From an uncultured bacterium (GTDB lineage Bacteria; Desulfobacterota; DSM-4660; Desulfatiglandales; CALKZT01): DNA of 41,363 bases. The notes beneath the pieces were generated by a model. It searched no databases and had not been told where the DNA came from. It was given only the letters and a program-made list of their open reading frames with translations. A program made the translations under genes and the position numbers. Position 1 is the stretch's first letter; every line of letters begins with the position of its first letter. Where the stretch lies: positions 1 through 41,363 of the forward strand of contig CALKZT010000063.1 of NCBI GenBank assembly GCA_938002815.1, written 5' to 3'. Of the stretch, positions 52-4,943 are shown in pieces.

Positions 52-399
52 AATCACATTCCCCCTTTCTCCCTCTAATAATCTCTCCTTATATAGGAAG
101 GAAAGTCTGATTAAGTTTTGGCTGCTTCACCTATACGGCGAGAGATCAAAGAATGGCTGAACATATGAAAGTATCTTACGATAGTCAGCTTATCCATGAG
201 AAATTTGGATATCCACCCCCTGCCTATTATAGAACAATTTTACGAGATTAGAAAATCAGCATCGAAAACTTTTTTGCCTACATTAGTTCCATCAGAGCTT
301 ATTTTATTATTAGCAAACAATTAATAATTTTGTAACCAAGAATTAACATGGATTAATTAAGATACCCAATAAAATGAAGGTAATTAGGAAAGAGTTCAT

Positions 400-2814
400 A
401 TGGGATTACTAGCTATAAAGAATGTTAGAGATACACCTAAGCAATCTCCTTCTTCTGAGTATCTTAAACATATCCAATCCATATTTGGGATCAATGGAGA
501 ACCTTTAGATATCCAAATAGGGTCTCTACCTTTCTCAGTAGGGGATGTCACAGCAGGCGTGGAAAATGAATTTCAAACTGTGGTTAAGGGTGAAGCCTCA
601 GATGTTGATCTCCCCATAGTAATAAAAGAATCAAGCTACTATAAGAATATAATAAAAAGGATAAAGGCTGGGGATACGTCCAAAAAGGCAATTTCTGAAT
701 TGGAAAAATATCTACAGACAAATCAGGAAAAGGTGTGGGAGAACAGTTGGGTAAGGTTTCCCGTGAGATTTCTGGGTAACGAGCTAACAAGTATTTTTGA
801 CGAAGACCTTAACTATGATAAATCCAGGCCTGAATTAGGCAAGAGAAGCGATAAGGATAAGTTTATTTTTTATCAAAATGACGAAGAATATGTAAGATTA
901 CCTGTAAGTTATATCTTAAAATTGAGTTTACTTGACGCATTAACGCAAACTGATTCTATACCTCATATTATCCGAGAGACTGGCAAGAAAATTGCTTCCC
1001 ATTTCATAAATGACAACACATCTCCTGAAATCTTTTCTTTCGTCCCTGTGCAGATGAGTCGGTCTAACAATTTTGGACAAGCTGTTGCAAAAGAAACCTT
1101 GAAAAGATACTTTTTTATTCAGATGCTTGTGATGTATGCAAACAAACGTTTTGGCCTTAATCAAAGCGGACAACACATTTGCCTATATTTATCATCTCAT
1201 CCTCCTATAAGACAAAAAATATTGAACAATATTATATCAGATCATTTTTACAGGGAACTGTTTATGAACCCTTGCCTTTCAGGCTGGGATAGAGGTGAAG
1301 AGAAGTTTCATTATATGGAGCTTTGCCATCAAGTCCTATCCAGAAGTCATCTCAATACTATATCTAAGTTGAGAGACGCAGGCATAATAACGAGAAATCT
1401 CATAGTGCTACCTAATATTTCCAATATCTCCCTTGCAAATAATGGTACCCATATTAGCATAGGAAGCAAAATATTAACAGAGCTTCTGGCTGATCAATAC
1501 TCAGGATTTGGTAGAGCCGATGAGAAATATATAGGGGATCTTGCAATAAAGATAGTGGAACATTTTCTACCGCTCTTTGTGGGAACATATTCAGCATCTC
1601 CGTATAGAATCGATTTCTGGGATTTTCATCCCGAAAAGGTATTAGGTTTTCTACCCCATGAACTGGATTATACCCACTTAAGGATGATATGGCGTAGGTG
1701 GAAGAAAAAGGCACGTCTAAAGATATTCGGAAAGTCTGTTACTCCATTTGGACCACAATGGGTTGATAAGGTTTTAAGTAAGATTTTTGGCTTACAGGGA
1801 GATTTTGTCGTGGATTTTAGGCTCATAGACTATCTTGTATGCCTCTTGTCCACCGAGCATAGCCCTGCTCTGGATGGCTCCATAGACAATGATAAGAGGT
1901 TAAAGAGGGACCTTGCAGCCTTTGGAGTATTCGACCCCAATATGTCCATGTATCTACTCTACAGGTTAAGAGATTATTCTTCCAAAGGATTTTCTGGTTT
2001 TGAAGGCCGTTACTATAGTATCTTCTACAATATCTTAGAAGATATGGGGCAGTCTGCATCACTTCAGGCCCTTATAACTGCTCTGGCATATAAATATATT
2101 TTGATGGAAGGCATAACACATGACCATATACCAGACGATCCAAATATAGAAAGTGAGAGAAGGCAGATATTCTTTGGAACAGCAATAGGTATACCTACAT
2201 TTTATATTAGAAAAGACACAAGCAACAAATTTATGTTAAAGATTCTCAAATATATAGATCACACACGTTTTAGCCGTCGCTATCCTGGATATATAAGGAT
2301 ATACGGTAAAGAATACCAGAAGGCACTTATTAAAATTATAATGGAGGACGCCAAAGAGATAGTGGAAATGATGGGCTTGGAAGAGACACTCGAATCCCTA
2401 AAAGAAAGAATAGATAATCCTGAAACCTTCTCTGCCTGGGGAAAATTGACAAGAGATATCATGAATGAAATCAAGAAAAGCGACCCTCTTAAATGTTCAG
2501 GCGATACCTTTAATAAGCAAGCAGAGATATTTTATAGGGATATTTTGAGAAAAAGACATATGGAAGAAGCATTTTCTGTAGTCATTGAAGAAGTTAGAAA
2601 AATAGATTTGCATTTATGTAGCGGGTGTTTATTCAGAGATTCCCTCAGGTCTATATTGGGTAATTCATCAGCTATTGATTTTATCATTAAAAGGAAAAAA
2701 GAAATTTTTGATGAAACACTATCTGAAAATGACCTAAGGATAATTTTGCAACTCATTACTTTGACTATATATAGTGATATAAGGGAGTTTGAATCAGAAA
2801 ATAGGGACTATTAA
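400..2814 (+). CDS. Large conserved-looking protein of unknown function (804 aa)
   Basis: Long intact ORF with ATG preceded by ggaaagag; no family recognised by reading. First gene of a co-directional set with PSD-like and Lgt-like genes. Confidence 0.85.
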   Translation: MGLLAIKNVRDTPKQSPSSEYLKHIQSIFGINGEPLDIQIGSLPFSVGDVTAGVENEFQTVVKGEASDVDLPIVIKESSYYKNIIKRIKAGDTSKKAISELEKYLQTNQEKVWENSWVRFPVRFLGNELTSIFDEDLNYDKSRPELGKRSDKDKFIFYQNDEEYVRLPVSYILKLSLLDALTQTDSIPHIIRETGKKIASHFINDNTSPEIFSFVPVQMSRSNNFGQAVAKETLKRYFFIQMLVMYANKRFGLNQSGQHICLYLSSHPPIRQKILNNIISDHFYRELFMNPCLSGWDRGEEKFHYMELCHQVLSRSHLNTISKLRDAGIITRNLIVLPNISNISLANNGTHISIGSKILTELLADQYSGFGRADEKYIGDLAIKIVEHFLPLFVGTYSASPYRIDFWDFHPEKVLGFLPHELDYTHLRMIWRRWKKKARLKIFGKSVTPFGPQWVDKVLSKIFGLQGDFVVDFRLIDYLVCLLSTEHSPALDGSIDNDKRLKRDLAAFGVFDPNMSMYLLYRLRDYSSKGFSGFEGRYYSIFYNILEDMGQSASLQALITALAYKYILMEGITHDHIPDDPNIESERRQIFFGTAIGIPTFYIRKDTSNKFMLKILKYIDHTRFSRRYPGYIRIYGKEYQKALIKIIMEDAKEIVEMMGLEETLESLKERIDNPETFSAWGKLTRDIMNEIKKSDPLKCSGDTFNKQAEIFYRDILRKRHMEEAFSVVIEEVRKIDLHLCSGCLFRDSLRSILGNSSAIDFIIKRKKEIFDETLSENDLRIILQLITLTIYSDIREFESENRDY

Positions 2815-2876
2815 TGAAGATTGCCAAAAATACAACTTAATACAGATAAGCCCATGTGTGAGAGAAGGGAATAACT

Positions 2877-3887
2877 ATGCATCAGTTCATAGATAGGCAG
2901 ACATCTGAAATAAAAGATGAAGTATTTTATGGTGACAGATTTATCAAATTTATATATTCAACCACAAGAGAAAACCCAGCCCTTATGTATAATATTTTGA
3001 CTTCAAAAAGATTATCCAAACTCCTGGGTTTTTTCTGTTTTGATTCTTTTATAGGCTCAAAGGTTACAAGGACAAAACATTTTATAAGTAAACTGGGCAT
3101 CAACTATAGTGAGTGTTTGGATAATCCCAAGTTATTTGATACACCGAGAAAGATATTTGAACGCAAAATACGATATTGGGAAAAAAGGCCAATGCCTTCT
3201 GACGAAGCGGTTATAGTATCCCCATGTGATGCAAAGGTTTTAATTGGTTCCTCAAACATAATATCATTAATTCAAATAAAAAATAAATTTTTCCAATATG
3301 AAGAACTCATAGGCTATGAAAAAAGGGAATGGCTGGACGCATTTAGGGATGGTGATTTCGCCATTTTCAGGTTAACACCTGAAAAATATCATTATAACCA
3401 TATGCCTGTATCGGGTGTTGTGTTAGATATCTATGAGATCGATGGATGTTACCATTCCTGCCACCCAGAGATTACAATAACCTTATGCAGTCCTTATTCA
3501 AAAAATAAAAGGGTTATTAGTATTTTTGATACAGATGTGGAAGGTGGAAGCCATGTGGGTCTCGTGGCTATGATAGAAATTGTTGCCCTTATCATAGGTG
3601 ACATTGTGCAGTGCTACAGTGAAGAAAGATACGACAACCCCCAAAAAATCAAAGAGGGCATGTTCCTAAGGAGAGGACAACCTAAGAGCCTCTTCAGGCC
3701 ATGCAGTTCTACTGTTATTCTCATATTTCAAAGAAATAAGATTACCTTTTCTACAGACCTTATCAAGAATACTTTTAATGATAAGGCAAAAAGCGCATTT
3801 TCAAGGGCATTAAATATGTATTTAGTGGAGACAGATATCAAGGTCCGTTCTCCCATAGGTACTGCCGTAAATATGGAGAAGCAATAA
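2877..3887 (+). CDS. Phosphatidylserine decarboxylase-like protein
   Basis: PSD-type motifs: VSPCDAKVL (Asp region), PEKYHYNHMPVSG (YHRFHSPVDG-like His region), and C-terminal FRPCSSTVILIF at the position of the LGST/GST self-cleavage motif. Confidence 0.8.
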   Translation: MHQFIDRQTSEIKDEVFYGDRFIKFIYSTTRENPALMYNILTSKRLSKLLGFFCFDSFIGSKVTRTKHFISKLGINYSECLDNPKLFDTPRKIFERKIRYWEKRPMPSDEAVIVSPCDAKVLIGSSNIISLIQIKNKFFQYEELIGYEKREWLDAFRDGDFAIFRLTPEKYHYNHMPVSGVVLDIYEIDGCYHSCHPEITITLCSPYSKNKRVISIFDTDVEGGSHVGLVAMIEIVALIIGDIVQCYSEERYDNPQKIKEGMFLRRGQPKSLFRPCSSTVILIFQRNKITFSTDLIKNTFNDKAKSAFSRALNMYLVETDIKVRSPIGTAVNMEKQ

Positions 3888-4943
3888 ATGATCGTAGAAC
3901 TATTTAGCATATTACTACTTATCGCTTGTTGTTCCCTGCAGATCTGGGGATTTAAAAAGTTACCATCTGAGAAATGGCAAATAATGGCAGCAATTCCCAT
4001 AAGAAAGACAGGAACGAACGTGTGGTCTGCCGTGAACTATACCTTTTATGGATTTTTTATTGCTATCTCATACACATTCTCCTTAGCCATCTTTATTTTG
4101 CTTCTTGGATCAATCTCTATAAGTCTATGGACAAGCCTATTTATTGCTACGCTGATAGGACTAATATGTGTGCCTGCATCTAAACTTGTAGCAATTTTAG
4201 TTGAGAAAAAGAAACATACATCCACAATAGCAGGAGCATCATTTGTGGGTCTAATACTGTCTCCATGGATTTTGAAGATATTATCCCTATTCGACCTTAA
4301 AGTAGCTTTTATAGATAAAGCAAAGGTAATTCCCATACTTTCCTCTCTTCTAATCTCTTATGCCTTAGGCGAGGGCCTTGGTAGGCTTGCATGCATAAGC
4401 TTTGGTTGTTGTTATGGCAAGCCCATTAGATCATGTGGCCGCATCACAAGGAAATTATTTGCAAATTATGCTCTTATTTTCCAAGGAAAAACAAAAAAGG
4501 CCTCTTATGAAGGAGGCTATGAAAACGAGAAGCTTGTGCCTATCCAGGCAATAACCTCAATCATACTAGTTCTGGCTGCTACATCTGGAATTTATCTTTT
4601 TCTAAAAGGTTACTATTTTATCTCCTTTATTTCTACTATAACAATAAGCCAATTGTGGAGATTTATCTCCGAATTTTTAAGGGATGATTATAGGGGAGGA
4701 GGCAAAGTAACTGCTTATCAGATTATGAGTTTATTTGCTTTTTTTTATATTGTATGTGTTAGCTTTTTTATGCCTCCTGCAGTTTCTATGCTTCCTGAAC
4801 TAACAAGAGGCTTAAGCACTATTTGGGATCCAATTGTTATAATATTCTTAAACATTCTATGGTTTATACTTTTCTACATATTTGGGAAAAGCACAGTTAC
4901 AGCATCGAATGTAGCTTTGTATGTTGTTAGGGAGAATATTTAA
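3888..4943 (+). CDS. Prolipoprotein diacylglyceryl transferase (Lgt)-like multi-pass membrane protein
   Basis: LGRLACISFGCCYGKPI resembles Lgt GRxGCFxxGCCYG; C-terminal WRFISEFLRDDYRGGGKVTAYQIMS resembles Lgt RFxxEFLRxD...TxxQxxS; many hydrophobic segments. ATG directly follows the previous stop codon. Confidence 0.75.
   Translation: MIVELFSILLLIACCSLQIWGFKKLPSEKWQIMAAIPIRKTGTNVWSAVNYTFYGFFIAISYTFSLAIFILLLGSISISLWTSLFIATLIGLICVPASKLVAILVEKKKHTSTIAGASFVGLILSPWILKILSLFDLKVAFIDKAKVIPILSSLLISYALGEGLGRLACISFGCCYGKPIRSCGRITRKLFANYALIFQGKTKKASYEGGYENEKLVPIQAITSIILVLAATSGIYLFLKGYYFISFISTITISQLWRFISEFLRDDYRGGGKVTAYQIMSLFAFFYIVCVSFFMPPAVSMLPELTRGLSTIWDPIVIIFLNILWFILFYIFGKSTVTASNVALYVVRENI

Follow-up and report, generated by a model that had tools for sequence, protein, structure and literature searches.

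Phosphatidylserine decarboxylase (PSD) uses a pyruvoyl group to decarboxylate serine head groups, Lgt transfers a diacylglyceryl unit from phosphatidylglycerol (PG) to a thiol, and ligases of the glutamine-synthetase (GS) fold form amide bonds with the use of ATP. Under phosphate limitation, all detectable phospholipids of Desulfovibrio alaskensis can be replaced by phosphorus-free glyco- and ornithine lipids (PMC5193443), and thus phosphate-driven lipid remodelling is established in sulfate reducers. Here we analyze three adjacent genes (below, the trio) near the start of contig CALKZT010000063.1 from an uncultured bacterium of the order Desulfatiglandales (Desulfobacterota; assembly GCA_938002815.1), the whole contig stretch of 41,363 nucleotides being referred to as the window. 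They encode an 804-amino-acid (aa) protein, a PSD-like protein and an Lgt-like protein, and had been singled out by an earlier reading of the window (the original prediction). The comparisons below give about an even chance that the trio is a single operon of the phosphate-starvation (Pho) response that remodels membrane lipids, probably towards a phosphorus-free aminolipid.

The three open reading frames (ORFs) are intact and lie on the plus strand between window positions 400 and 4943 (804, 336 and 351 aa); their coordinates (Table 1) agree with the co-directional arrangement and abutting last two genes described originally. A scan of GTDB genomes yielded 21 loci with 47-70% identity in Desulfobacterota-type lineages, Nitrospirales, and SAR324, among which 18 hold the complete trio in the same order, and contig ends cut L006, L009, and L026. 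The same ordered set was found in 37 of 37 further neighbourhoods, in some of which the psd-like and lgt-like genes are separated by one or two others. The 804-aa family is present in 44 of 395 genomes of the phylum, and a search of the same genomes for the Lgt-like family returned the identical 44 plus G118, where the contig stops about 1.2 kb past the Lgt-like gene, at the expected place of the 804-aa gene; no fragment of this gene was detected elsewhere in that assembly. Random association is ruled out by the fixed order in the neighbourhoods together with the co-occurrence over 395 genomes, and the trio is almost certainly a conserved functional unit. Isolates possessing the operon include Desulforhabdus sp. 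TSK and Pelovirga terrestris M08fum. At one locus (L022:3233-5712) the coding region of the 804-aa protein is fragmented over several frames, and the psd-like and lgt-like genes are still open.

Each of the 43 trio genomes tested has at least two psd matches, and 41 of them also have a canonical lgt; therefore the trio copies are additional and co-inherited, not housekeeping. The window genome itself has separate matches to both families, which rules out the trio genes as its only copies: the canonical lgt sits on another contig, and the canonical psd is apparently split over two contig ends (G000:C49:6232-6498, profile positions 4-120, and G000:C15:9348-9539, positions 132-197). On each of the three points that the original prediction had named as speaking against it (a known family for the 804-aa protein, lack of recurrence, sole psd and lgt copies) the opposite was thus observed.

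The phosphate link, which the original prediction missed, comes from two kinds of genomic evidence. A Pho box consists of directly repeated 11-nt units (PMC4415409), and a candidate of this type precedes the first gene of the window trio (Table 1). We scored TAACA-N6-TAACA at a threshold of 9/10 matches in 56 trio upstreams and 540 control upstreams. Repeats with at least 9/10 matches at 11-bp spacing occur in 14 trio upstreams (25%) versus about three controls (0.6%), and when the units are set 9, 10, 12, or 13 bp apart the share of such trio upstreams drops to 0-4%; kinship among loci inflates these counts, and the spacing control shares the same kinship. Four TAACA-type units in register are seen upstream of L064. 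Boxes of the CTGTCAT type were identified in L009, L010, L011, and L018, several Desulfobacteraceae copies being textbook-like, as in L011 (CTTATACCCAT-CTAACATCCGC-CTGTCATAACC). This E. coli-type box was rejected as the general form, since it is clear in one clade only and the TAACA form, with its spacing controls, is far stronger.

The second kind of evidence is the gene neighbourhood. In a second sample of 37 trio loci (±8.5 kb), compared with 40 control regions taken from these contigs, pst or phoU genes occur within about 8.5 kb of eight trio loci versus none of the controls (one-sided Fisher p ~0.002, calculated by hand). By NCBIfam and Pfam naming, complete pst-phoU-phoR-phoB sets lie near the trio in L010 and L021, and pst genes in L012, L008, L016, and L017. 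The Nitrospirales trio (L015, L016, L017, L019) resides in a polyphosphate neighbourhood, with ppx upstream and CHAD/CYTH and ppk1 genes downstream. Several observations weigh on the other side: a strong repeat is missing from most trio upstreams and a nearby pst gene from most trio loci, and in the window no pho gene adjoins the trio. We nevertheless consider it likely that the operon is Pho-linked. The opposite view, in which the link is a coincidence of neighbourhood and divergent copies serve another envelope role, for instance the routine provision of phosphatidylethanolamine or the maturation of lipoproteins, agrees with the presence of pst or polyphosphate genes near only 16 of 58 loci overall and with the conservation of Lgt and PSD residues. 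However, such genes are absent from all 40 control regions, the repeat excess is confined to the 11-bp spacing, and backup copies are needless because of the separate psd and canonical lgt genes counted above, so that this view appears rather unlikely.

The 804-aa protein has no match in Pfam, NCBIfam, or PDB sequences, in agreement with the original statement that it belongs to no nameable family, and the family is undescribed. The window protein and its Desulforhabdus homologue were each modelled by AlphaFold2 with a pTM of 0.81 and a poorly resolved middle region. In Foldseek searches against PDB, the ranking was headed by YbdK, GshA, and the bifunctional GshF in one case and by GshF and PafA in the other, Dop appearing in both lists; all these proteins belong to the GS-fold carboxylate-amine ligase superfamily. 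The best matches within it were 1tt4 (probability 0.96, E 0.054) and 3ln6 (probability 1.00, E 0.016), with target-normalised TM-scores of 0.3-0.45. The superfamily is marked by the motifs GhExE in strand 1, [HD]x[NH] in strand 4, and Ex[RK]x2D in strand 6 (PMC2588565). The first of them is fully matched by G53-V-E55-N-E57 in the first long strand predicted (residues 50-63). The strand-4 motif is matched in part by H351-x-S353 (predicted strand 350-356, assigned as strand 4 by eye), with Ser as the second residue, and the strand-6 motif by E535-x-R537-x2-S540, in or just after the predicted strand 534-538, with Ser in place of Asp. Residues G53, E55, E57, H351, E535, R537, and S540 are invariant across 53 sequences.

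The partial state of the HxS and ExRx2S motifs counts against a ligase, as does the comparison of the family by hhalign with GCS2 proteins from related genomes, which gave non-significant probabilities of 2-5%; in one local alignment of this overall non-significant comparison the LPF..TAGvENElQ strand is paired with GCS2 F..YTLGIEvEvQL. Given the Foldseek E-values above and the non-significant GCS2 match, the assignment relies on the fold ranking and a short motif. On the strength of the models, we find a GS-fold ligase the probable identity of this protein, and it probably works like one, although we do not class it as a proven member. The weak resemblance of an N-terminal GVENEF to glutamate-cysteine ligases, mentioned in the original prediction, is strengthened by the two structure searches and the invariant GxExE strand and is probably correct, but significant similarity to the GCS2 profile was not detected. 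Of the two roles proposed there for the protein, that of a partner enzyme fits and that of a substrate does not.

The PSD-like protein is a clear member of PF02666 (E 6.8e-37) and fits the clostridial-type PRK00723/NF001941 model over its whole length, N-terminal extension included, with a score of 153.7 bits versus the NCBIfam equivalog cut-off of 371. Equivalents of Asp90, His144, His147, and Ser254, which include the Asp-His-Ser self-cleavage triad, are kept in 19 of 19 members. The self-cleavage junction is PGSS in 18 of these; the window copy has PCSS, where Cys (TGC, window 3702-3704) replaces Gly through a one-base difference, either real or an assembly error. A further point against a new head-group chemistry is the resemblance of the trio PSD to authentic clostridial PSDs, so that its substrate could be ordinary phosphatidylserine. 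The trio might then modify an existing phospholipid: phosphatidylethanolamine would be made locally, its amine (or else a different lipid) would receive an amino acid through the ligase, and lipid transfer or binding would fall to the Lgt-like protein, with phosphorus kept and envelope charge or stress resistance altered. The PRK00723 branch of the trio PSD with every catalytic residue present is consistent with this model, and an amine-bearing lipid is a possible acceptor for a GS-fold ligase. However, expenditure of phospholipid is poorly consistent with the phosphate link, and the model provides no reason for a diacylglyceryl transferase; we regard it as improbable, if the foremost of the alternatives.

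The window Lgt-like protein is a marginal member of PF01790 (E 6.2e-5, narrowly missing the Pfam cut-off), and other members of its family reach E 1.6e-14. In E. coli Lgt, Arg143 and Arg239 are essential, Glu243 and Arg246 form a conserved network with Arg239, and H103 of the HGGL motif is a proposed contact of the lipobox peptide (PMC4728403). Equivalents of Tyr26, Arg143, Gly154, Arg239, Glu243, and Arg246 are kept in 17 of 17 Lgt-like sequences. The position of H103, essential in E. coli, is filled by Val, Ile, Thr, Ala, or Phe in all 17, and never by His. Loss of H103 was dropped as proof of an altered acceptor, and is not decisive, because the canonical Lgt of the window genome has Ser there. 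Both the PSD-like and Lgt-like proteins look catalytically competent, as judged from sequence; the two, whose motifs were originally described as recognisable but divergent, belong to their named superfamilies and retain the catalytic residues.

The known acceptor of Lgt is a peptide, and the Pup ligase PafA, a GS-fold relative, ranks high for one of the two models. Both observations would suit lipidation of a peptide or protein by the trio, with the ligase building or tagging a peptide, the Lgt-like enzyme adding diacylglyceryl, and the PSD-like enzyme decarboxylating an end. On the other hand, the neighbourhoods examined show no conserved small ORF or peptide gene that recurrently accompanies the trio, and His is missing from the H103 position in every trio Lgt-like protein, as also in the canonical Lgt of the window genome. 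We therefore give this explanation a low probability.

Remodelling towards a phosphorus-free aminolipid could proceed as follows. On phosphate shortage, active PhoB/PhoP would bind the candidate 11-bp repeats upstream of the first gene. The 804-aa enzyme, according to its fold and motif, would activate a carboxylate with ATP and join it to an amine to yield an amino-acid- or peptide-like head-group precursor. The conserved catalytic residues suggest that the Lgt-like enzyme would transfer diacylglyceryl from PG to this head group, not to a lipoprotein cysteine, with release of glycerol phosphate, and that the PSD-like enzyme would remove the head-group carboxylate to give an amine-bearing lipid standing in for phosphatidylethanolamine. 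The order of the three steps is provisional, and the most likely product would be a phosphorus-free diacylglyceryl aminolipid. That the trio acts on lipid is very likely, and it would presumably build a modified lipid; that its product is phosphorus-free has slightly less than an even chance. The complete route, in which diacylglyceryl from PG is placed onto an ATP-ligated amino-acid head group before decarboxylation, giving a new class of phosphorus-free lipids, is put forward tentatively.

Additional genes beside or inside the operon were observed at several loci; those inserted in some genomes likewise have a phosphate or lipid theme, in line with the main interpretation. A family of HAD-type phosphatase-like proteins recurs at L006:1-681, L007:8967-9752, L008:1-660, L022:6750-8177, and L074:5491-6903, and could recover phosphate from the released glycerol phosphate. 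It is inserted inside the operon in L022 and L074, the latter also containing an ArsC-like protein. In L058:2708-7517, two proteins are encoded between the psd-like and lgt-like genes: one of 735 aa that neither Pfam nor NCBIfam covers, and a PHP-domain glycosyltransferase resembling glycolipid synthases. In one family of carriers a small gene occupies the same place (L068:11660-12061, L070:6991-7392, and L071:4790-5230), and it is DksA-like in L070 and L071.

The GC content of the window trio is 36% versus 47% for the remaining contig, and the 16 further members of its order sampled among the 395 genomes all lack the 804-aa family; therefore recent horizontal acquisition is likely in this lineage. 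Elsewhere, the trio mostly matches its host in GC content. A second strongly AT-rich case, L077 (genome G328; trio 30%, flanks 44%), suggests repeated horizontal transfer.

Table 1. Positions of the trio genes and the upstream repeat in the window
Feature	Position	Strand	Supporting details
Candidate Pho box	322..348	+	TAATA at 322, TAACC at 333, TAACA at 344; 11-bp spacing; ~50-80 bp 5' of the first ATG; read from sequence; last two units match 9/10
804-aa protein, new family, predicted GS/GCS-fold ATP-dependent carboxylate-amine ligase	400..2814	+	GVENE strand 53-57, NNGTHIS 347-353, FEGR 534-537
PSD-like pyruvoyl decarboxylase, PRK00723 (clostridial) type, N-terminal extension	2877..3887	+	Catalytic Asp/His/His/Ser retained
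Lgt-like integral membrane diacylglyceryl-transferase homologue	3888..4943	+	Positions of E. coli Lgt Tyr26, Arg143, Gly154, Arg239, Glu243, Arg246 retained

As a general phenomenon, lipid remodelling in response to phosphate limitation is known; the enzymes of the trio and the chemistry they imply are not, and no description combining the three families was found in the open-licence literature. If our interpretation is correct, about one tenth of the sampled genomes of the phylum, as well as nitrite-oxidising Nitrospirales, hold an unrecognised response to phosphate shortage that acts via membrane lipids. It would also provide a function for a large, highly conserved family outside Pfam, NCBIfam, and PDB. 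In several phyla, Lgt and PSD enzymes would then have been recruited to a new product, their chemistry reaching past lipoproteins in the one case and past phosphatidylserine in the other.

Each component of the trio can be compared with a described counterpart. For the 804-aa protein, the GS-fold ligases (YbdK/GCS2, GshA, GshF, PafA) are the top structural matches of two models, and its GhExE, HxS, and ExR elements resemble the published motifs (PMC2588565), but it differs in the lack of significant sequence or profile similarity, in a length about twice that of YbdK, in a large extra helical region, and in strand-4 and strand-6 motifs that agree only in part. The PSD-like protein has the PF02666 domain, N-terminal extension, and four catalytic residues of the PRK00723/NF001941 decarboxylases, whereas its score is far under the equivalog cut-off, it has PGSS (PCSS in the window copy) as its cleavage site, and a second psd is always present in the genome. 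Similarly, the Lgt-like family belongs with Lgt in PF01790 and retains its six conserved positions, but forms a distinct, well separated family with a shortened and altered region before the HGGL position, in genomes that nearly always contain a separate canonical lgt. Finally, like the Pho-controlled pathways for betaine lipids (BtaAB), glycolipids (Agt), and ornithine lipids (OlsF), the trio appears as a phosphate-linked operon of lipid-acting enzymes; these pathways include none of its three proteins, whereas the trio implies an ATP-dependent ligase, a pyruvoyl decarboxylase, and diacylglyceryl derived from PG.

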